64,000 bases of DNA from an uncultured Bacteroidales bacterium (GTDB lineage Bacteria > Bacteroidota > Bacteroidia > Bacteroidales > Muribaculaceae), in assembly GCA_902776435.1 (NCBI GenBank), contig CACYQB010000009.1:35159-99158 (forward strand), in the 5' to 3' direction. The position numbers and the translations under genes were made by a program. Below, piece by piece: positions 1,568 to 39,753 of this stretch. Position 1 is the first letter of the stretch, and every line of letters begins with the position of its first letter. The notes under the pieces were generated by a model. The model was not told where the DNA came from. It ran no database searches and saw only the letters and a program-made list of their open reading frames with translations.

Positions 1568-2737
1568 TTAGTTAGGTTGAATATCTCCAGACTTAATATA
1601 GATAGGGCGAATTGACATGTGGAAGGCCCGCAGATGTTCATTGAACATGTTCAGCCCGGTCAAATCGCCTCGCGATGAATCACACACGAACATCCAAGCG
1701 GTTGCCACACCCTGTTTAACGGCATAGCCCCTGGTTTGGGACGTACCTGGTGTATCACAGATCGTTGATGTCCAATACCACCCCGAGAAGTTAGTATGCA
1801 ATGGGCCCTCCATTAGAAGCGAACTGCCCTTGCGGGGAAGTATGCCGTAAATACCCGCCAACGGTATGATGATGCTGTTGCCGTTGGGACCGATGACCTC
1901 ATACCAGTTGCGGCCATCCTGAGAACGCAGTTTCCACTCGCATTTGCTACACAATTCGTACGCCTCATTACCACTTGGAGTACGCCATCCGGCACCCCAA
2001 TGTGCCGTCACAACGTCAAGAGAAGTACCGCCTATCTCGGTCGGGGGATTCATGCCACCATAGTTATTGGTATTCCAGACAAAAGCACCCGCTTGCTTGT
2101 AAATGCCAGTTCCATCCCACAGTTCGCCCGTCGGGTCGCCCCAGCCAAAGTAACCGCCATAGTCTTCAGGTGATTTAGCCCCCAGATTACAATTGGCCCA
2201 CATGACCGATAGACCTAAATCAATAGCTTCTAAGGCTTCGGGCTTATTCAATGAGAACTCTGGCGGGGTTGGATCGCCAGACCCGCTTGGTTCAACGTCC
2301 TTAAGGGCACGGAAATAATAGGTCTTGAGGGTAGTGCCTTCTTTGGATTCCCCATTCACCATCTTTCTGCGGACAATCTGCACATAGCAAAGGGTTTGCC
2401 CAGAATACTGGACATAGGCCGATGAATATTCACGATAAATGCTGTCACATGCCGTAAGCAGGGCTGATTCAACACCTGTCGTGCTTTGGTCTGACTCATA
2501 CTGTGCCATGACACTCTTCATCTTTGAGACCGTCCTGGAAATCACACTCACTTGCCCACCCACCAGTGAACCTTCTTCCTCAGCATTATCCGACAATTCC
2601 AATGTTACTTCTGACTGTATGAGCATATAATAATTGTAGACTGCACTGGGTTCGTCGTTTTTATCCCCGCACGAAGTACCTATAACTATCATGACAGCTA
2701 CAAGCCAAAACAATCTTTTACAAGTTTCCATTATCAT
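1568..2737 (-). CDS. FISUMP-type lipoprotein, long form
   Basis: A protein of 389 residues with a lipoprotein signal ending in VIGTSC near residue 23; the ATG at 2731 is an equally possible start. Residues about 35-150 form a variable region (YYMLIQSEVTLELSDN, then a helix-rich part). The C-terminal 230 residues are the FISUMP-like domain (AIDLGLSVMWANCNLGAK, DYGGYFGWGDPTG). The same N-terminal region recurs in the truncated gene at 1-556. A TAACTTTG -7 box at 2782-2789 with a TTG about 19 bp further upstream marks the start of the operon. The three paralogs suggest local duplication. A surface-exposed role is an inference; no ligand or enzymatic activity can be read from the sequence. Confidence 0.8.
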   Translation of the reverse strand: MIMETCKRLFWLVAVMIVIGTSCGDKNDEPSAVYNYYMLIQSEVTLELSDNAEEEGSLVGGQVSVISRTVSKMKSVMAQYESDQSTTGVESALLTACDSIYREYSSAYVQYSGQTLCYVQIVRRKMVNGESKEGTTLKTYYFRALKDVEPSGSGDPTPPEFSLNKPEALEAIDLGLSVMWANCNLGAKSPEDYGGYFGWGDPTGELWDGTGIYKQAGAFVWNTNNYGGMNPPTEIGGTSLDVVTAHWGAGWRTPSGNEAYELCSKCEWKLRSQDGRNWYEVIGPNGNSIIIPLAGIYGILPRKGSSLLMEGPLHTNFSGWYWTSTICDTPGTSQTRGYAVKQGVATAWMFVCDSSRGDLTGLNMFNEHLRAFHMSIRPIYIKSGDIQPN

Positions 2738-2781
2738 ATCATCTATTATAAAGGTTAGTAAAAGTGGATTTTACTCGGTTA

Positions 2782-2811
2782 CAAAGTTAGCTTGAAGAAG
2801 TCAATAAACAA
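2782..2811 (-). promoter_or_regulatory. Promoter of the FISUMP lipoprotein operon
   Basis: On the minus strand, TAACTTTG (2782-2789) matches the Bacteroidota -7 consensus TAnnTTTG, with a partial -33 element (TTG at 2809-2811) 19 bp away. Transcription would start about 40 nt before the first gene. Confidence 0.55.
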
Positions 2812-2929
2812 TGGAATTCAGCATAATTCAAAGTTAATTTGATTACACGTAATATATTGAAATACAATGATTTACAAAAATAAAAGTTAATGTATTGGTA
2901 ACATGGGAAAATGTGTTGTTTTTTTTAGT

Positions 2930-2937
2930 TATTTTTG
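2930..2937 (+). promoter_or_regulatory. -7 box for the TPR regulator gene
   Basis: TATTTTTG matches TAnnTTTG 35 bp before the ATG at 2973. No convincing -33 TTTG lies at the usual spacing. Confidence 0.45.
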
Positions 2938-2972
2938 CGTCAAAGAATCACTTTATTTCATAGGCACTACCA

Positions 2973-4916
2973 ATGACTAAACCCATTTTCCATAACAAAA
3001 AGTGGACTGCACTTGCCCTAGTGGGTGCAATCACGGTGATGTCTATATTGTGCTCCCACCCCAACCACACCGAGCTGTTATCTCATGTCGATTCCTTGTT
3101 GGTGAAAAACAAATCACAGCAGGCCCTAAATAGCCTAATGGACATGGACAGGAGTGAATTCAACAAAAGAGATCAGGCATATTATAACCTGCTATTAACC
3201 CAAGCCAAATACAAGAATCATATCAATGCCACTAGCGACTCGGGCATCAATGACGCTGTTTCATACTATACCAAATCTGAAGACAAAGAAAAGCATACCA
3301 GTTCTCTTATCTATCAAGGTCTTGTAAACGAAGAATTAGGTAACTACGACAAGGCTGTCCTTTGCTATCACAAGGCAGAACGTACTGCCCTCAAAACCGA
3401 CATATCCAATCAAGCTTTCGCCAAATTAAGGCTGGGATATCTGTACAAGTCTCAATTCGTTGGAGCCAAAATCATCGCATCAAACAAGTTTCAAGAGGCA
3501 TTAAAGTTGTATAAACAAATGGGGAATCAACAATTTGTCATCTTGTGCTTGAAAGAAATAGGAGAACTTTACTGCGACCAAAAAGGCAAGGCCGAAAGTG
3601 CTTTACATTATATCAATGAGGCTTTAGATTTAGCAAAGGCCTTGCCAACGGAGCAATATGCGCTTTTCTCAACATACACCTGTCGAGCCCAATACTATGC
3701 CTCGGTAGAAAACGACTATACCAAGGCTAAAAACGATGCCCTCAAAGCCATTTCATCAATAGACAGTAACCAAATTGACAATCCTAGGGCGCATTTTACT
3801 GCTGCATTGGCCTACATCAACCTACAACAACTGGACTCATGCATTCATTATCTCAAGTATGCACCTGAAATGACATGCTATGCTGATAGTATCCTTTATT
3901 TTAAAGTCCTGTCAAACATCAACTTTCATCAGGCGGATTATCCTCAGGCTTTTTCTTACTATAAGAAGGCCATGAATCTTGAAGATTCAGCTCTTGTCAA
4001 CAGTCTAACTCACAGATTGTTGACAATAGAAAAAAGGTATGATCTTCAAAATGAGGAATTGCAGAATGAGAAGCTACGTTCTAATCTCAAGAATACTTGG
4101 TTGGCACTTGCTGTACTTGCTGCTATCGGTCTAGGTCTATTATCTATTGCTCTCGGTTATCGGTCCAGGTTACGCAACAAGGAACATGAATTTGAACTAC
4201 TCAGAGCTGATTTGGACAGTTCAACAAACAGTCTAGAACAAGTTCAAGCAACACTGAGTAGTTACGAGGAAGACATGAACCAAGCCACATCCACTATTAC
4301 AAAACTAAACCAAGAAATTGATGCTGCCCATCAACGTCTGATTGACATGGAATCCGAGCGGACGCATTATCAAAAAAATGTTGAGTCATCACGCCAAAGC
4401 ATCACACTGCTAAATGACCAGATAGCGGTTGTGAAAAATGAGTTAGTTAGCAAGGAGCGCGAAAGAGCCGAATTGAACGACCGATTGGCTGAGCTGGAAC
4501 ACAGGAAAGGTCAGTCTGACGAAATCATTTCGATTCTTGATGGTCAAATCAAGGTGATACACCAACTGATGCAGTGGGCTTACGAGTTGGACGGCAATGC
4601 CTTTACCAAGAAATTCAACTCAATAATGACGATACAGGAGAAGAAAAACTCGTCCAGTTATTGGAGCAACCTGCAATCACTGGTCAATGACCTCTATGAC
4701 AACATCCTTGTCAAGGCACAAGAGCAAGCAGGAGGCACACTGCGTGATGATGAGTTGAACTTTATCGCTCTGTACTGCTGTGGTTTCTCCCGAACAGCCA
4801 TTATGGTCTGTATGAATTATAAACACATCGTTACCATCTCGAACAAGAAAGTGCAAATCGCCAAGAAATTGGGCATCAACAACCTTGACAAATTTGTTGA
4901 GCCTTATCAACGCTAG
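2973..4916 (+). CDS. TPR, transmembrane and coiled-coil protein with C-terminal HTH-like region
   Basis: A protein of 647 residues. An N-terminal hydrophobic segment (LALVGAITVMSILCSH) acts as a signal or anchor. Residues about 35-350 are helical repeats of TPR type (for example DKAVLCYHKAERTA and ESALHYINEALDLA). One membrane helix follows near 370-395 (LALAVLAAIGLGLLSIALGY), then a long coiled coil (about 400-520). The end (DELNFIALYCCGFSRTAIMVCMN, then IVTISNKKVQIAKKLGI) looks like a winged or LuxR-type helix-turn-helix. The architecture is that of Bacteroidota membrane-bound regulators that sense with periplasmic TPRs and bind DNA in the cytoplasm. It is adjacent to, but divergent from, the FISUMP lipoproteins, so regulating them is possible but unproven. 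Confidence 0.7.
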   Translation: MTKPIFHNKKWTALALVGAITVMSILCSHPNHTELLSHVDSLLVKNKSQQALNSLMDMDRSEFNKRDQAYYNLLLTQAKYKNHINATSDSGINDAVSYYTKSEDKEKHTSSLIYQGLVNEELGNYDKAVLCYHKAERTALKTDISNQAFAKLRLGYLYKSQFVGAKIIASNKFQEALKLYKQMGNQQFVILCLKEIGELYCDQKGKAESALHYINEALDLAKALPTEQYALFSTYTCRAQYYASVENDYTKAKNDALKAISSIDSNQIDNPRAHFTAALAYINLQQLDSCIHYLKYAPEMTCYADSILYFKVLSNINFHQADYPQAFSYYKKAMNLEDSALVNSLTHRLLTIEKRYDLQNEELQNEKLRSNLKNTWLALAVLAAIGLGLLSIALGYRSRLRNKEHEFELLRADLDSSTNSLEQVQATLSSYEEDMNQATSTITKLNQEIDAAHQRLIDMESERTHYQKNVESSRQSITLLNDQIAVVKNELVSKERERAELNDRLAELEHRKGQSDEIISILDGQIKVIHQLMQWAYELDGNAFTKKFNSIMTIQEKKNSSSYWSNLQSLVNDLYDNILVKAQEQAGGTLRDDELNFIALYCCGFSRTAIMVCMNYKHIVTISNKKVQIAKKLGINNLDKFVEPYQR

Positions 4917-34030: not shown

Positions 34031-34102
34031 GCTCCTGTAGTTCAATGGATAGAATGGAGGTTTCCTAAACCTTAGATTTGGGTTCGATTCCCAGCGGGAG
34101 TA
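34031..34102 (+). tRNA. tRNA-Arg(CCT)
   Basis: A full cloverleaf: acceptor GCTCCTG pairs with CGGGAGT (one G-U pair), D arm with TTCAATGGATA, anticodon stem GAGGT/ACCTT with loop TTCCTAA (anticodon CCT), T arm with GGTTCGATTCC, discriminator A. CCA is not encoded. Its 3' end is the attachment site of the integrated element that follows; insertion keeps the tRNA intact. Confidence 0.93.
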
Positions 34103-34103
34103 C
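34089..34103 (+). repeat. attL: direct repeat in the tRNA-Arg 3' end
   Basis: TCCCAGCGGGAGTAC, identical to 39739-39753. It covers part of the T arm and the acceptor 3' strand of the tRNA, as usual for tyrosine-recombinase targets. Confidence 0.88.
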
Positions 34104-34119
34104 TTCACAACAACAATTA

Positions 34120-34150
34120 AGACACTGCAAACCAATTACTTGCAGTGTCT
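34120..34150 (+). terminator. Element-borne terminator for tRNA-Arg
   Basis: An 11-bp perfect stem (AGACACTGCAA at 34120-34130, TTGCAGTGTCT at 34140-34150) then TTGATTTTAT. It replaces the chromosomal hairpin displaced to 39758-39793 by the insertion. Confidence 0.75.
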
Positions 34151-34163
34151 TTGATTTTATACT

Positions 34164-34184
34164 ACTGGCAAATCACTGGCAAAA
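34164..34184 (+). promoter_or_regulatory. Candidate integrase arm sites, left end
   Basis: Two direct copies of ACTGGCAAA with 12-bp period. The same pair occurs at 39602-39623, each 60-150 bp inside the element end. Confidence 0.6.
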
Positions 34185-34289
34185 AGGCAATTTTAGACCC
34201 TTTTCAGGCTGCTTTTTATGTACAGCTTTACCCAGTTTTTCATATAGACTTTTATAGAGTTTTTCACCTCGACTGGGCAGGGCTGATGC

Positions 34290-34456
34290 TTCCACTACTT
34301 TAGTGGGAATTATGCAGCACCCCCAACAGCCCCAAAAAATTCTTGTGCATGGTCAAAGGTTTGGGCGAGGTTTATTAAAAAGGGGGTACACCCTTCAAAA
34401 ACTATAGCCCCCACTATCCACAAGAAGCCAGTACACCGAAAAGGCACACTGGCTTC
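34290..34456. repeat. Hairpin-rich non-coding left arm of the element
   Basis: The gene-free stretch 34185-34638 holds a palindrome TTCCACTACTTTAGTGGGAA (34290-34309) and a 9-bp inverted repeat GAAGCCAGT/ACTGGCTTC (34424-34432, 34448-34456). The first palindrome recurs at 35248-35265. Such repeats could be a replication origin or packaging site of the element; nothing in the sequence decides this. Confidence 0.55.
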
Positions 34457-34638
34457 CTGACAATAGCAATGAAATGTGGGCTGCTGCATCAGTCTATTGC
34501 AGTCTAAAGTTAGGTGAATTTCCTACCGAAATTAAATTTTATTGTCCCTTATAGCTGGTTGGGGTTTACTGGCTGCTTGCTTTCCCAATAAATCATGCCC
34601 CCTATTCAAAGGCAGCTGCCGACATGGAAGCTGCTGGG

Positions 34639-35124
34639 CTACATCAGTCCATTGTCCTTCATCAGTTCTTTGTATTTGGCTTCATCAAGCACTTCATGCG
34701 GTTCCATATCATCCCAGTCAAAAGGTGATTCCATGCTGGTGCAAAGCTTCCTGATCTCGGCTTCAGGGTCTTGTCTGCTGGCATCAATCATTTCCACCTT
34801 GCCAATTACATACATTGCAGCCTTCAGCCTTGTGGCTTCATTGGGGGACTGCAAACAGCCCTGCACCGCATTCAGGGCTTCAGCATACAGCCCACACAAA
34901 CCATTGCGGATGTTGTCCTGAATGATTTGGCACTGCTGATTGTAGAAGCACTGGAAGCTGATTTTCTGCTGCCATTGGTAGATTGTAGCCCTATTCACAC
35001 TGACCTTCTCGGCTACATCGGTAACACTTTCACCTGAAGCCAGCAACAATGCTGCTTGTTCTTGCTGGGCTGTCAAGCCAGTCACCAGTGTCGATTGTGT
35101 TGATTTTTGTTGTCTTTTGTACAT
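34639..35124 (-). CDS. TerS-like helix-turn-helix protein
   Basis: A protein of 161 residues. Residues about 15-55 form a helix-turn-helix (TAQQEQAALLLASGESVTDV, then AEKVSVNRATIYQWQQ) of the kind in phage small terminase and phBC6A51 proteins. A helical part follows (NIRNGLCGLYAEALNAVQGC, then NEATRLKAAMYVIGKV), with an acidic tail (FDWDDMEPHEVLDEAKYKEL) usual for small terminase subunits. No large terminase is present. In phage satellites a TerS homolog redirects a helper phage's packaging; that role here is an inference. It could instead be a transcription factor of the element. It is the last gene on the left side. Confidence 0.6.
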   Translation of the reverse strand: MYKRQQKSTQSTLVTGLTAQQEQAALLLASGESVTDVAEKVSVNRATIYQWQQKISFQCFYNQQCQIIQDNIRNGLCGLYAEALNAVQGCLQSPNEATRLKAAMYVIGKVEMIDASRQDPEAEIRKLCTSMESPFDWDDMEPHEVLDEAKYKELMKDNGLM

Positions 35125-35231
35125 GTCTGCTTAATTTGTTGTTTATTGAATTGTTACTGGGCTGCTGCCCTTCTACTTTTGTCTACTTTAGAGAGAAAGC
35201 CAGCCATTTCACCCCCTCGGCATTGCCTTCC

Positions 35232-35268
35232 AAGCCCCCACTATTTTCCCACTACTTTAGTGGGGCTT
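35232..35268. repeat. Second CACTACTTTAGTGGG palindrome
   Basis: CCCACTACTTTAGTGGGG (35248-35265) lies within a wider inverted repeat AAGCCCCCACTA/TAGTGGGGCTT (35232-35243, 35258-35268). It sits between the rep gene and the TerS-like gene in the 219-bp gap 35125-35343. It may be an origin, operator or terminator. Confidence 0.55.
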
Positions 35269-35343
35269 CACCCCTTCCTCATGCCTGAGGTGTCGAGGTC
35301 GAGGGAAGGAAGTACAGCATATAAAATTATATGCTTTTCGGTG

Positions 35344-36345
35344 CTAAATAAGGGGGTCGGTGTCTGGGCTGTCACCCTCATCACCAGTGCCAGCTTCCAG
35401 TGCTGCTGCAAGCTGCTGGGACAAATCCCACTTGCTGGTGTCTGCTTCCCTCATCTTACCAAGAATGGCTTTAACTTGCCTTTTTCTGCTGTCCTTGTCA
35501 GCCTTACTTAGGACTTCATCAGGGAAAGAATTAATGCGATTATACAGCATCTTCTTCACCTCCTGAAGGGTCTTGCTGTCATTCAGGCTATCTTCAACCA
35601 GTACCAGTGCAATGATGCTGGCTGTGGATAAATCAGCCTTACTTGTCGGTGCTTCAACTTGTGCCATTGGTATTAGTCTTTTATATTGTTGATATAAATC
35701 TTCCTTGAAGATGCTTTGCCAGTCAGGATTGATCAGGTTTGCAAGCATCACCCCTTTCCCATGATTCAGCACACTGGGCTTCAGGTAGTGGGCTTCCCAC
35801 TTCAGGAAGTAGCCCTGAGGATTCCAGCCAGCTTCCTGAATGATTTTCCTTCTGCTCATGCCCTGCTTCATTTCGATGTTCTTGCCAGCATCATACATCT
35901 TCAGCCTAACATTTGAATCTTGCCAGCTTGTGAAGTTGCCCTTGTCCTTGCCATTGACATATTGCTGAAGGTGTTCACTGGGCTTTGCCTTGTGGTGCTG
36001 TATGTAGTCCCTCGGCTTCACCTCGACTGGTATGATCACCCCATATTCAAACACTTCCACAATGCTGTCCCACAAGTCCACATGAAGCATCTTCCCAATG
36101 TAGTCAATGGCTGCTTGGAAGGCTTCAGGGTCATAGGTGAAGTTATGCCCTTGCCAGTAATACATGATGCTGCCCTGAAGCTTCAGGAAGCTGTCAGGAT
36201 TCCAGTAGATGTCCAGCCCTTCACAGCCTTCCAGTCGGTATCTTGCAGCCCCAGTGGGGTAGGTAGCAACAATTTGGCAATGTCCAAAAAAAGGGCTAAC
36301 TTTGCCACCCTGATTCGGCTTTATTATGCTAATGAAGTCAATCAT
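35344..36345 (-). CDS. Phage/plasmid replication protein, II/X-like family
   Basis: A protein of 333 residues from the ATG at 36345 (MIDFISIIKPNQGG); a longer frame begins with TTG at 36405. It shows the pattern of Bacteroidota phage/plasmid replication proteins of the II/X (filamentous phage gene II) type: LKLQGSIMYYWQGHNFTY near 75-95, VFEYGVIIPVEVKPRDYI near 125-142, VRLKMYDAGKNIEM near 168 and LKWEAHYLKPSVLNHG near 205. The C-terminal 100 residues are variable and acidic. By analogy it would nick the element for rolling-circle replication; the catalytic tyrosine cannot be fixed by eye. It follows the 36408-36908 gene by 62 bp. Confidence 0.6.
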   Translation of the reverse strand: MIDFISIIKPNQGGKVSPFFGHCQIVATYPTGAARYRLEGCEGLDIYWNPDSFLKLQGSIMYYWQGHNFTYDPEAFQAAIDYIGKMLHVDLWDSIVEVFEYGVIIPVEVKPRDYIQHHKAKPSEHLQQYVNGKDKGNFTSWQDSNVRLKMYDAGKNIEMKQGMSRRKIIQEAGWNPQGYFLKWEAHYLKPSVLNHGKGVMLANLINPDWQSIFKEDLYQQYKRLIPMAQVEAPTSKADLSTASIIALVLVEDSLNDSKTLQEVKKMLYNRINSFPDEVLSKADKDSRKRQVKAILGKMREADTSKWDLSQQLAAALEAGTGDEGDSPDTDPLI

Positions 36346-36407
36346 TTTATAATCCAATTGAGGGGGTCTGCTGTGAAGCATTCCCCCTCTTTCGTACCTC
36401 GGCAATA

Positions 36408-36908
36408 TCAGTTGCCACTTTTGACATAGCTGGTTAAAAACCTCATCACTTGTGGCATATCATTGGGGTTGCCCATGCCAGCGAAATAGAAGATGCTGAT
36501 GCTTTCCCACTGGTCGGTGCTATGCATCACAATCAGGTCACCAGTGTCCCTCACATTGCCTTTATAATTGGTAATGCCAATAGTGCCATAACCAATAAAA
36601 AGGGGATACAATGGCACTTGCCAAATTTGTGTCCTACACACAAAAGGCTTGTACTTCTTCAGGGGTGATTCCTCGGCTACCTTGAATGTACCGATAAGCT
36701 GCCCCACTACTGGGTGCATGGCATTCCTTCCTTTGTGCTGTACATTGGTCATTTCATTCCCTCGGCTAATTGACAGCCTATTAGGAAGAATCTTGCAGCC
36801 CTGCTGCCAGTAGTAGCTTGATTTAGTTCCTTTCTTGTGCTGGTAGATAGCCACCAGCATCGACTTGCTAATAAACTCCTCAATCATGATATAATCCCCT
36901 TTTCTCAT
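36408..36908 (-). CDS. Uncharacterised protein of the tRNA-Arg element
   Basis: A protein of 166 residues if it starts at the ATG at 36908, which overlaps the stop of the excisionase-like gene in ATGA. A second ATG at 36887 (MIEEFISKSM) follows the motif GGATTATATCATGATT, which is shared with the rep and integrase starts, so 159 residues is also possible. Some parts are basic and aromatic (YQHKKGTKSSYYWQQGCKIL); others are Gly/Ile-rich (YPLFIGYGTIGITNYKGN). No known domain or catalytic motif is visible. Its place between excisionase and replication protein suggests a replication accessory or regulator, but this is only context. Confidence 0.6.
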   Translation of the reverse strand: MRKGDYIMIEEFISKSMLVAIYQHKKGTKSSYYWQQGCKILPNRLSISRGNEMTNVQHKGRNAMHPVVGQLIGTFKVAEESPLKKYKPFVCRTQIWQVPLYPLFIGYGTIGITNYKGNVRDTGDLIVMHSTDQWESISIFYFAGMGNPNDMPQVMRFLTSYVKSGN

Positions 36909-37240
36909 TGCTTTGCACTGATGTAGTGTTTCTCCATGAAGGCTTCGATGTCAGCCCTACGCACATAAATCTTCCTACCGAACTGGCTGAAGGGGATCAC
37001 CCTTTTGTCACGATAGTCTTGCCATGTCTTTGCCGATACTCCCAGCATCTTCCTTGCCTCGGCACTCTCAATCCACTGGCTATTTACTTCCTCGGCTGAT
37101 TTGGTTTGAAGTGTGTCCTTCACTTCATTCAGCAAGTCCTTGATGCCTTCCCACTCAGCCTGAGGAAGCATCACTACTGAAGGCATTGCTGCTGGTGTTG
37201 TTTTGTTTGTCATTGCTTTTAATTTCATCAGGGAAAACAA
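36905..37240 (-). CDS. Excisionase-like helix-turn-helix protein
   Basis: A protein of 111 residues; internal ATGs (for example 37213, MTNKTTPAAMPSV) are alternative starts. The C-terminal half is a MerR-type winged helix of the excisionase/AlpA group: SAEARKMLGVSAKTWQDYRD, then VIPFSQFGRKIYVRRADIEA, ending FMEKHYISAKQ. Such proteins bind near attachment sites and control excision, or activate element genes as AlpA does. A -7 box lies 35 bp upstream (37275-37282), so this gene probably leads a transcript covering the rep and TerS-like genes. Confidence 0.8.
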   Translation of the reverse strand: MFSLMKLKAMTNKTTPAAMPSVVMLPQAEWEGIKDLLNEVKDTLQTKSAEEVNSQWIESAEARKMLGVSAKTWQDYRDKRVIPFSQFGRKIYVRRADIEAFMEKHYISAKQ

Positions 37241-37274
37241 TTCACAACATTGTGACTTGATTCTGATTTCGATG

Positions 37275-37282
37275 CAAAATTA
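37275..37282 (-). promoter_or_regulatory. -7 box of the excisionase-rep-TerS transcript
   Basis: TAATTTTG on the minus strand, directly before the excisionase-like gene. No clear -33. Confidence 0.5.
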
Positions 37283-37394
37283 TAATGCGGTAAAATAGAA
37301 GGAAGAAAAAGAAAAATGCGTAAAATTTCGGCTTATTACACCGATTTTTTACGCAATAATTTTGCTCAAATGAATGCCTTCAAGACTTATGCTT

Positions 37395-38081
37395 TCATGC
37401 CTTTTGCCATTTTTCCCATGCAGTTAGCCAGTTCTGGACTTGCTGTGCTTTTTCTCTGCCGACAGCACCTGAAAAGCCTTCTTCAGTAATGGCTACCTTG
37501 CCAGTGTAACCAAAAGCCAACATTATATCATAAATCAAAGAATTAAATGCTACCTTTTTGGCATTAGTAATGCCAGTGAATTGAAAAGCAAGTGTGATGC
37601 CCCATGCCAGCTTCCCAAGTGTAGCATTTTTCCCCTTTGGGAAAAAAGTATCATCATCAGTGGCTGCAATTCGCAAAAAATCATCATCAGTATATTTGTC
37701 AGGCTCTATAGGCTCATCAGTGGCTCTTGAGTCTATTTTTATTGCTGCATAGTATAATATTTGTTTTAGAATCTCACTGCTTGCTGGTATTGACACTTTC
37801 ATTTCAGTCCCTTTAACTTGCTTCCCTTTGGGCTTTTTGATTGTTCCTTTTACTTCGATGTCGCTGCCCTCACAAGCTACCAATAATCCTATCAATGCTG
37901 GAAGTCCTTTAATGCTGCCTTCTTCCTTTTCATACCTAAATTGGCGAAATGCTGTAGCAATACTACGGATTAGTGTGTAGTCATAAGGCACACCATGTTT
38001 CTTCAAGACTTGCTTGATAACCTTGATATTATTGATAATTTCACCAGTCAGTTTTTTAGGTTGTTCAAGTTCCATAGGCAT
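37395..38081 (-). CDS. Uncharacterised cargo-type protein of the tRNA-Arg element
   Basis: A protein of 228 residues with no domain I recognise. It starts with a helical, basic region (GEIINNIKVIKQVLKKHGVP, then IRSIATAFRQFRYEKEEG), continues with a Lys-rich loop (KGTIKKPKGKQVKG) and an acidic patch (DEPIEPDKYTDDDFLRIAAT), and ends with alternating hydrophobic helices and WLTAWEKWQKA. No signal peptide or clear membrane helix. It lies between the integrase and excisionase genes, the slot where satellites and integrative elements often keep accessory genes such as phage defence; that is inference only. Confidence 0.6.
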   Translation of the reverse strand: MPMELEQPKKLTGEIINNIKVIKQVLKKHGVPYDYTLIRSIATAFRQFRYEKEEGSIKGLPALIGLLVACEGSDIEVKGTIKKPKGKQVKGTEMKVSIPASSEILKQILYYAAIKIDSRATDEPIEPDKYTDDDFLRIAATDDDTFFPKGKNATLGKLAWGITLAFQFTGITNAKKVAFNSLIYDIMLAFGYTGKVAITEEGFSGAVGREKAQQVQNWLTAWEKWQKA

Positions 38082-38128
38082 ATAATATCTTATGCTTTTG
38101 TGTTACTATATAAGGGGTAGGCTACTGG

Positions 38129-39553
38129 CTACTTGTCGAGGGTAGCCAGTACCGATTCCACTTCTTCTTTACTCATGCCCTGAATCAGTGCAAGAAGCTG
38201 TGCCTTCTTGTCGGCTGGGCTACCAAATACCGATTCCAGTGCCTTGTCATTCTCATCAGTGCTGAAGTTGCCCATGTAGCCTTCAGTTGTTTGCAGCTTG
38301 GAATGTGCCAGCAAAGACTTCACCTTGTTGCTTTCAATGCCCTTTTGTGCTGCTGCTTTCGCAAAGGAATGTCGGCTGATATGCATGGACACTTTCTTGC
38401 TGATGCCAGCCTTTTCAGCCAGCTTCTTCAGGCTCTTATTGATCAGGGCATTTTTAGTCCCTATTTCTTCAAATAGTTTCTGCTTCATGTCGCTGGGCAG
38501 GGTGTCCCTATCAGCCTGAGAAATGGCACTTGCATAGGTCTTGCGGTTGTCCATGAAGGGGAAGATGTAGTCAGTAGGCTTGCTGGCTTCAGTCCTATAT
38601 AAGTCAAGAATGGCTGCTGCTTGTGCCACAAGCTTCAAGTCCCTTGTCTTGTGATTCTTGCCCATTTGATAATTAAGCCTTCCACCCTCGACATTCAGCC
38701 AGCGCAATTGCAGTAGATCACCAGCCCTGATGCCAGCACAATAGAAGCTAAACAAGAAGCAATTTCGGCTGTGCCAGTCAAGACTACCTTCAGCCAGTTC
38801 CAGTGCTTCCAGTGCCTGAATTTCGGCTGTGTCCAGCTTTTCCTTTTCGGTCTTGACCTTGCTATAAGTGAAAACTAAAAAGGGGTTCTTATCGGCTGTG
38901 ATATAGCCCAGCTTGACAGCTTCCTTCATCATAGCCCTGAAAACTTTCAGCACCACTGCAATAGTGTTTTGGTGAAGCATCTTCCCTGCTTCTTTCTTGC
39001 TTCTTGAATTGTGAAGGGTGTGAAGGTAGGCATCAAACCTTGTTAGGAATTCAGGGGTGATTTCACTAAACAGCAATTCTTTCTTGTGGTTCATCTTCTT
39101 GTCGAGGAAGCCAGCCAGCTTGTTCAGGAAGCCATTGTAGCACTTCCAATTCCTGATGCCACCAGCATTAAGAATCTGCTGTGTCCTTTCGGCTGCAAAG
39201 CCAGTCATGTCACCAGCATCAATCTTCAAGAAGGTCTTGGACTTTTCTTCACCCTTCACCAGCCTTGCAACATTCTCGGCTGTGGGTGCTGCATCATCTT
39301 CCTTCAGTTCCTTGAAGGTCTTTTTGGCTTCTGCAAGAATGTCTGCTAATTCCTGATTCAGCTTCTTTGCATCAGGGTTGCTGGGCTTAATCCATTTGTC
39401 CCCCTTATATTCAGTGCTGAAGTCACTTTTTCGGTTCAGGTAAATGTCGGTCTTTACTCTTTTTCTCTTGCCTGCAATAGTGATACACAGCAAAATGTTA
39501 TATTGCTGCTTCTTGTTCGGCTTTGCATTCAGTTCAAATCTATAAGTTGCCAT
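38129..39553 (-). CDS. int: Tyrosine recombinase/integrase of the tRNA-Arg element
   Basis: A protein of 474 residues; the start is the ATG at 39553 (MATYRFELNAKPNKKQQY), as the longer frame begins with TTG. Residues 1-90 are an arm-binding-type domain, 110-220 a SAM-like core-binding domain (LNKLAGFLDKKMNHKKELLF), and 240-430 the catalytic domain: Arg in FYCAGIRAGDLLQLRW, His-x-x-Arg in MHISRHSFAKAAAQKG, and the nucleophile Tyr in LQTTEGYMGNFSTDE. All catalytic residues seem present, so it should be active. It would insert the element at tRNA-Arg(CCT). A -7 box at 39579 gives a short leader. Confidence 0.93.
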   Translation of the reverse strand: MATYRFELNAKPNKKQQYNILLCITIAGKRKRVKTDIYLNRKSDFSTEYKGDKWIKPSNPDAKKLNQELADILAEAKKTFKELKEDDAAPTAENVARLVKGEEKSKTFLKIDAGDMTGFAAERTQQILNAGGIRNWKCYNGFLNKLAGFLDKKMNHKKELLFSEITPEFLTRFDAYLHTLHNSRSKKEAGKMLHQNTIAVVLKVFRAMMKEAVKLGYITADKNPFLVFTYSKVKTEKEKLDTAEIQALEALELAEGSLDWHSRNCFLFSFYCAGIRAGDLLQLRWLNVEGGRLNYQMGKNHKTRDLKLVAQAAAILDLYRTEASKPTDYIFPFMDNRKTYASAISQADRDTLPSDMKQKLFEEIGTKNALINKSLKKLAEKAGISKKVSMHISRHSFAKAAAQKGIESNKVKSLLAHSKLQTTEGYMGNFSTDENDKALESVFGSPADKKAQLLALIQGMSKEEVESVLATLDK

Positions 39554-39578
39554 AATCAAATCATTTTATAATCCACTG

Positions 39579-39586
39579 CAAATATA
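39579..39586 (-). promoter_or_regulatory. -7 box for the integrase gene
   Basis: TATATTTG on the minus strand, 26 bp before the ATG at 39553. The motif GGATTATAAAATGATT lies between it and the start codon and encodes a two-codon ATG-ATT-TGA minimal frame. Confidence 0.55.
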
Positions 39587-39601
39587 GGCACTTTTCATTT
39601 T

Positions 39602-39623
39602 ACTGGCAAATCTACTGGCAAAA
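39602..39623 (-). promoter_or_regulatory. Candidate integrase arm sites, right end
   Basis: ACTGGCAAA twice with 13-bp period, a counterpart to 34164-34184. Confidence 0.6.
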
Positions 39624-39738
39624 TTTTCACATTTTATTGCCTTCTATTATATTCTAATTCAAAAATAAATTTTACCTTTGCAGTGTTTTTCAGGTAGTTA
39701 TGAATATTTCAAGATACAGCAAATTACTATTTAAGTAG

Positions 39739-39753
39739 TCCCAGCGGGAGTAC
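39739..39753 (+). repeat. attR: direct repeat of the tRNA-Arg 3' end
   Basis: TCCCAGCGGGAGTAC, identical to 34089-34103, followed directly by the displaced chromosomal sequence that once lay behind the tRNA. Confidence 0.88.

Follow-up and report, generated by a model that had tools for sequence, protein, structure and literature searches.

We have analysed a 64,000-nucleotide window (contig CACYQB010000009.1 of assembly GCA_902776435.1) from the draft genome of an uncultured Bacteroidales bacterium (3.45 Mb in 43 contigs). It contains a compact island of 5.65 kb, which a preliminary description based on the letters of the window had taken for a possible phage satellite. Six open reading frames (ORFs), all on the minus strand, lie between two attachment (att) copies in the order integrase, X, HTH_17 (AlpA-type), Y, II/X-type replication protein (Rep) and a protein resembling terminase small subunits (TerS-like). 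Related loci are numbered L005 to L109 below. The locus is built up as follows.

34031..34103, plus strand: tRNA-Arg(CCT), the integration site (ARAGORN); the final 15 bases form one of the two att copies
34089..34103: att copy at the tRNA end, TCCCAGCGGGAGTAC (exact repeat)
34119..34151: hairpin with a 12-bp stem beside the tRNA; a similar hairpin lies at the same place in L029
34639..35124, minus strand: TerS-like helix-turn-helix (HTH) protein, 161 aa (PHROG matches, structure model and comparison, dN/dS)
35344..36405, minus strand: II/X-type Rep, with a conserved start MIDF at about 36345 (profile match, dN/dS)
36408..36908, minus strand: gene Y, 166 aa, kept in close relatives (identity 72% to L015, 64% to L014)
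36905..37240, minus strand: HTH_17 (AlpA/excisionase-type) protein, 111 aa (Pfam HTH_17, PF12728, 2.7e-12)
37395..38081, minus strand: gene X, 228 aa, variable among relatives (19-34% identity to four relatives in the alignment)
38129..39559, minus strand: tyrosine integrase, 476 aa (Pfam Phage_integrase 1.3e-16, SAM_5 3.7e-15, Arm-DNA-bind_5 1.7e-7)
39739..39753: att copy at the integrase end, an exact recurrence of the first (exact repeat)

The island is precisely bounded and is a real element. The repeat of the tRNA-Arg end that the preliminary description had pointed out is exact, and chance matches to the tRNA end in 2000 shuffles of the 641-bp flank on the integrase side reached 13 bases at most, with a mean of 7.5. 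The six ORFs also lie where they had been placed, on one strand. The G+C content is 44.2% in the island and 52.6% in the rest of the window. A flank with rubrerythrin (a presumptive name given from the sequence, like secDF and suf below) is present in all 48 genus genomes searched. From these, 19 loci of other genomes entered the count of empty sites: six (L035, L036, L045-L048) have the arrangement secDF, tRNA-Arg(CCT), rubrerythrin free of any island, and in the remaining 13 the examined stretch contains no tRNA. The preliminary description had also proposed to look for the same island at the same site in related genomes, and L015, with a Rep 72% identical to that of the window, is indeed likewise inserted at tRNA-Arg(CCT). 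Exact repeats of 13-28 bp of a tRNA or tmRNA end bound all eight loci tested, with spans of 4.7-7.7 kb; an att-repeat test on nine loci gave none in L102, and in L104 11-12 bases only, away from the tmRNA end. In another genus genome, L037, the neighbour of the same tRNA-Arg att sequence (2235-3705) is a different gene that by eye resembles an integrase.

The integrase at one end and an excisionase/AlpA-like HTH protein as third gene had been predicted correctly, and the latter also matches phrog_66 (excisionase and transcriptional regulator, 4.9e-8). X, Y and Rep of the window gave no Pfam match above the cut-off. In scans of the six proteins against Pfam, PHROGs and NCBIfam we identified no capsid or large terminase gene, as the preliminary description had stated, and no relaxase, portal, or primase- or helicase-type replication module. 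Integrase, HTH_17, Y, Rep and TerS are under purifying selection, with ratios of nonsynonymous to synonymous change (dN/dS) of 0.08-0.29 against L028 and L029 (integrase 0.16 and 0.13, respectively; Y 0.11 and 0.15; Rep 0.16 and 0.08); the TerS-like gene gave 0.16-0.28 against three relatives. In the comparisons with L031 synonymous change was saturated in four of five (pN/pS 0.38-0.43).

The preliminary description had made its reading depend on a relation of the 34639-35124 protein to terminase small subunits. Such a relation was found: the protein matches phrog_2538 (2.4e-9, residues 17-114) and phrog_7344 (1.7e-8, residues 7-109), both annotated as 'terminase small subunit', and the matches span the HTH and the following helices. 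The same two families are matched by all eight relatives scanned, and the phrog_2538 match reaches beyond the HTH in nine of nine proteins scanned. The significant Pfam matches are HTH families, and the only 'terminase large subunit' match in PHROGs (phrog_3746, 7e-4) covers the HTH. The structure model lies nearest to phBC6A51, a phage protein, and behind it terminases score level with ordinary HTH proteins; fold families missing from the comparison list were not counted as excluded. Alternatively, the protein might regulate replication or copy number, and the island would then be a cryptic rolling-circle replicon that has integrated and lacks a transfer route of its own. Such HTH proteins are hard to separate from regulators, LuxR-type HTH proteins score like terminases in the fold comparison, and the contig L106 has an HTH_17-Rep pair with no integrase found there. 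Since the phrog_2538 match passes beyond the HTH and two relatives of the family have moved between species very recently (see below), we regard this explanation as distinctly unlikely.

Twelve loci, the window included, carry the TerS-like gene (the others are L005, L006, L014, L015, L016, L024, L025, L026, L027, L028 and L031). A search with the single protein found it in three of 247 family genomes, and profile searches in six of 101 genomes of the genus and five of 393 of the order, the own genome included each time. A scan of genome contigs confirmed six of 44 pattern matches, namely four contigs already known, L028 (CAMEUD010000069.1) and L031 from Prevotella veroralis DSM 19559. The complete order integrase, X, HTH_17, (Y), Rep, TerS-like is present in nine of the 12 loci, counting the window. 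L005, whose contig ends before the integrase, and L026, which has the TerS gene in two pieces, an IS-type transposase nearby and no integrase seen, are counted among the 12 and stand outside the nine. Variation is found around the core: two genes take the place of X in L006 and L027, one extra gene lies ahead of TerS in L027 and L028, Y is absent from L024 and L027, and L024 has an AbiH gene within its att copies. Defence-type genes near L094, L099, L102 and L104 were left out of the cargo, since they are either beyond the att copies or at loci without sure att copies. In L014 (6689-7755), the third locus outside the nine, proteins of 119 and 236 aa replace the II/X-type Rep, neither with a Pfam match at E up to 0.01.

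The II/X-like replication protein of the preliminary description stands as a remote relation, without the support of a direct Pfam match (none at E up to 1). The alignment of the window Rep family, which includes L024, L025, L027, L028, L029 and L031, aligns with that of the L006 type over 178 columns in a profile comparison (93.9%, 1.6e-7), and the L006 Rep belongs to Phage_CRI, the G2P replication family (Pfam, 1e-21). The window Rep is thus remotely related to Phage_CRI (G2P), and from this kinship it would be expected to nick DNA and to copy it by rolling circle. A Rep of filamentous-phage type also invites the proposal that the island is a satellite of filamentous phages, with Rep producing single-stranded copies for packaging by a filamentous helper. 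TLC and RS1 are satellites packaged as single strands by filamentous helpers, and they resemble the island in having a rolling-circle replication protein in a small satellite; they differ in their helpers, in their integration route and in having no TerS. We know of no use of a TerS-type protein in filamentous assembly, and this proposal is very improbable in our view.

The last position of the island is a slot that holds different proteins among relatives. Searches with the window-type Rep profile (18 of 295 order genomes) and the Phage_CRI-type profile (8 of 101 genus genomes), of which four of the 18 and three of the eight genomes were already rows of the profiles, gave 27 loci in total. 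A TerS profile match lies near Rep in eight of them, and a wider view of 13 Rep loci added one further weak match, L105. Other loci have in the slot a 124-aa protein (L084, L085), a DUF5681-like protein (L064, L065, L066, L083) or a small HTH protein (L069, L071); in the rest no recognised gene occupies the slot or the slot lies beyond the view. The 124-aa protein matches phrog_2412 (2.8e-18), a family with no stated function. With an E limit of 0.01 it hits 26 phage records, of which 24 are named Streptococcus; the Streptococcus satellite Javan342 has a weaker match. In all four phage contexts read (Javan213, by annotation, EJ-1, MT835491 and MT840062) the homologue stands directly before, overlaps or is joined to the large terminase. 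L016 and L094 share a tRNA-Leu(cag) att site and their other genes (integrase 79%, HTH_17 72%, Rep 62% and Y 38% identical), while their slot proteins have no BLAST match to one another. Two unrelated terminase-type small proteins in one slot are hard to explain except by a role in packaging, and this replacement, present in two related islands, is the strongest new support for reading the island as a satellite. The DUF5681-like protein is not claimed as another TerS: its only phage match, gp58 of Bacteroides phage BKO1-TP3, lies near the integrase, in a 7.9-kb stretch without an annotated terminase. The name DUF5681 itself rests on one Pfam match below the cut-off (L006, 0.0013), weak PHROG matches and the appearance of the N-terminus.

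The same evidence bears on the idea that the island is an integrative mobilisable element, with an HUH-type Rep that doubles as relaxase at oriT, a conjugative helper, and a DNA-binding accessory protein as its last gene. NBU and other mobilisable elements of Bacteroides are likewise small, integrated and found in Bacteroidales, but they carry a mobilisation protein, and none is recognised in the present island. The preliminary description had named homologous islands that always carry mobilisation genes and never respond to phages as an outcome that would refute a satellite; Pfam recognised no mobilisation gene and no relaxase family among the six window proteins and nine proteins of L006. 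Relaxases related to rolling-circle Rep proteins do exist (MOBT; review PMC11389934), and 19 of the 27 Rep loci have no TerS-like gene in view. A mobilisable element would leave the two unrelated terminase-type proteins in one slot unexplained, and we consider it unlikely.

Relatives of the island have moved between genomes. L094 and L095 are islands from genomes of two different species and carry the phrog_2412-type slot gene, not the TerS-like gene of the window. They differ at 9 of 4776 bases (4767 identical), whereas the adjoining suf operon is 83-88% identical. Islands of this type have therefore moved across species very recently. L028 is a whole contig of 5950 bp that consists of one island, 82% identical to the window over the integrase gene and filed under a Clostridia metagenome-assembled genome. 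At the att position both ends of the contig share 8 bases. An assembler cuts a contig in this way if an integrated form is present together with a circular or tandem one, and the ends of L028 may reflect such coexistence.

The preliminary description had suggested a phage satellite, and the island is probably a minimal satellite of tailed phages; the matches of the TerS family and the replacement in the slot make this the best-supported reading. According to a review, terminase genes or cos/pac sites point to mobilisation by phages (PMC11389934). We infer excision of this copy, dependence on a helper, packaging and the job of each protein along the following lines. Integrase and the HTH_17 protein would release the island from the tRNA-Arg gene as a circle of about 5650 bp, and the II/X-type Rep would copy this circle by rolling circle. 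The TerS-like protein might then bind a packaging site of the element and recruit the large terminase of the helper phage, and helper capsids would thereby be filled with the element, perhaps in concatemeric form; following injection the circle would integrate again.

Several observations weigh against this satellite reading. Seven of the eight TerS matches near Rep are themselves rows of the profile and the eighth (L069) is HTH only, and therefore the Rep searches gave no new clear TerS; the 19 Rep-family loci that show no TerS-like gene count here as well. The fold match is not specific beyond the HTH in the structure model, as the level scores of LuxR-type proteins illustrate. Direct profile comparison with prophage TerS aligned 30 HTH residues alone and was weak (45%), no close TerS relative was found beside a large terminase (TerL), and the weak matches of the L006 TerS-like protein include Leptospira phage genes annotated as transposase-HTH (E 0.4). 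The phage collection gave three matches to the window TerS, the best at E 0.09, and none to the window Rep or the L006 Rep; among plasmids neither the window Rep nor TerS was matched. In viral_contigs neither the window Rep nor the alignments of TerS and of the window-type Rep led to a confirmed relative, and the single TerS query gave one weak match of 21 residues (L007). A search for helper terminases, limited to Terminase_6N, found this family in two of 11 island-bearing genomes and not in the own genome. The Phage_CRI-type Rep has two confirmed relatives in viral_contigs, L108 and L109 (4.2-4.3 kb, with integrase, X, HTH_17, Y and Rep); that collection thus lists such islands as viral, from sequence alone.

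Much is known of tailed-phage satellites in Proteobacteria and Firmicutes. Phage-inducible chromosomal islands (PICIs) of the SaPI type are small islands at att sites with an integrase, an AlpA-type regulator, a replication gene and TerS. The island shares with them the integrase and the AlpA-type regulator, and its TerS-like gene may correspond to their TerS. However, PICIs are larger and have primase- or helicase-type replication, while the island has a II/X-type Rep in place of such a module; no PICI with a G2P-type Rep was found in the searches made. The Streptococcus satellites Javan342, Javan343 and Javan479 also have the integrase at one end, and the distal part weakly matches the L006 TerS-like protein in Javan343 and Javan479 and the L094 slot protein in Javan342, but they measure 9-11 kb, belong to Firmicutes and have an annotated primase (Javan343) or helicase loader (Javan342). 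Closer in size, and similar to the present island in this respect, are the phage-inducible chromosomal minimalist islands (PICMIs) of Vibrionaceae. The six genes of PICMI115 in Vibrio include int, one gene, alpA, up1 and a primase (PMC10803314), and the likeness lies in the small number of genes and in the order integrase, often one gene, AlpA, often one gene, replication gene. A PICMI concatemer is packaged, which the authors of that paper call consistent with rolling-circle replication, and they found no homologues of packaging-redirecting genes. PICMIs also resemble the island in having no capsid-remodelling genes. Their models take PF05930 or PF12728 as AlpA, with a fis site optional in one search model and required in the other. 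By these models the island has the integrase (Phage_integrase, 1.3e-16) and AlpA (PF12728, 2.7e-12), but none of its six proteins is a DUF3987/DUF5906 primase and it uses tRNA-Arg instead of fis. In contrast to PICMIs, the present family has its sites at tRNA or tmRNA genes and carries a TerS-like gene along with a Rep of the II/X type. Because the PICMI primase and fis site and the primase-type module of PICIs are absent, the island is best read as a phage-satellite variant that resembles both families and is assigned to neither. Among the papers listed in literature searches, judged by title and the beginning of the abstract and with most subscription journals outside the scope, none dealt with Bacteroidales satellites.

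More tentatively, with our doubts slightly the stronger, the islands could form a Bacteroidales satellite family of 4.7-7.7 kb across the order, which combines a filamentous-type rolling-circle initiator with an exchangeable small-terminase cassette. Rolling circle would deliver head-to-tail copies, the cassette would select the packaging motor, and a swap would change the helper. If so, the DUF5681-like and small HTH slot proteins would be further unrecognised packaging adaptors. If the satellite reading as such is right, a G2P-type initiator would be added to the satellite plan, the islands would provide a minimal natural case for testing which functions a satellite has to encode, and the combination of HTH_17, II/X Rep, last-gene slot and tRNA would serve as a simple marker for finding more.

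Some minor observations concern the window and single relatives. Two identical perfect hairpins, CCACTAAAGTAGTGG, stand at 34292-34306 and 35249-35263 on either side of the TerS-like gene; the pair was considered as an origin and dropped, as none of the eight relatives checked carries it. The contig L106 (G415:C234, 6.4 kb) has the HTH_17-Rep stretch of about 2.3 kb twice, in identical copies 3740 bp apart. It is not taken as a circle read twice, since identity is limited to about 2.3 kb and the flanks of the copies differ. Beyond the island of L031 (357-1695, Prevotella veroralis) lies a second HTH_17-like gene, recognised by eye, with a neighbour of 306 aa, perhaps the rest of another element. 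The related island of L027 (G337:C21, 665-14016), about 6.07 kb long, is situated within a CRISPR array, with 107 repeats on one side and 4 on the other. Fourteen bases of the CRISPR repeat end, TGGAATTGAAACAT, are present at both island ends, which suggests that a CRISPR repeat served the integrase as its site.

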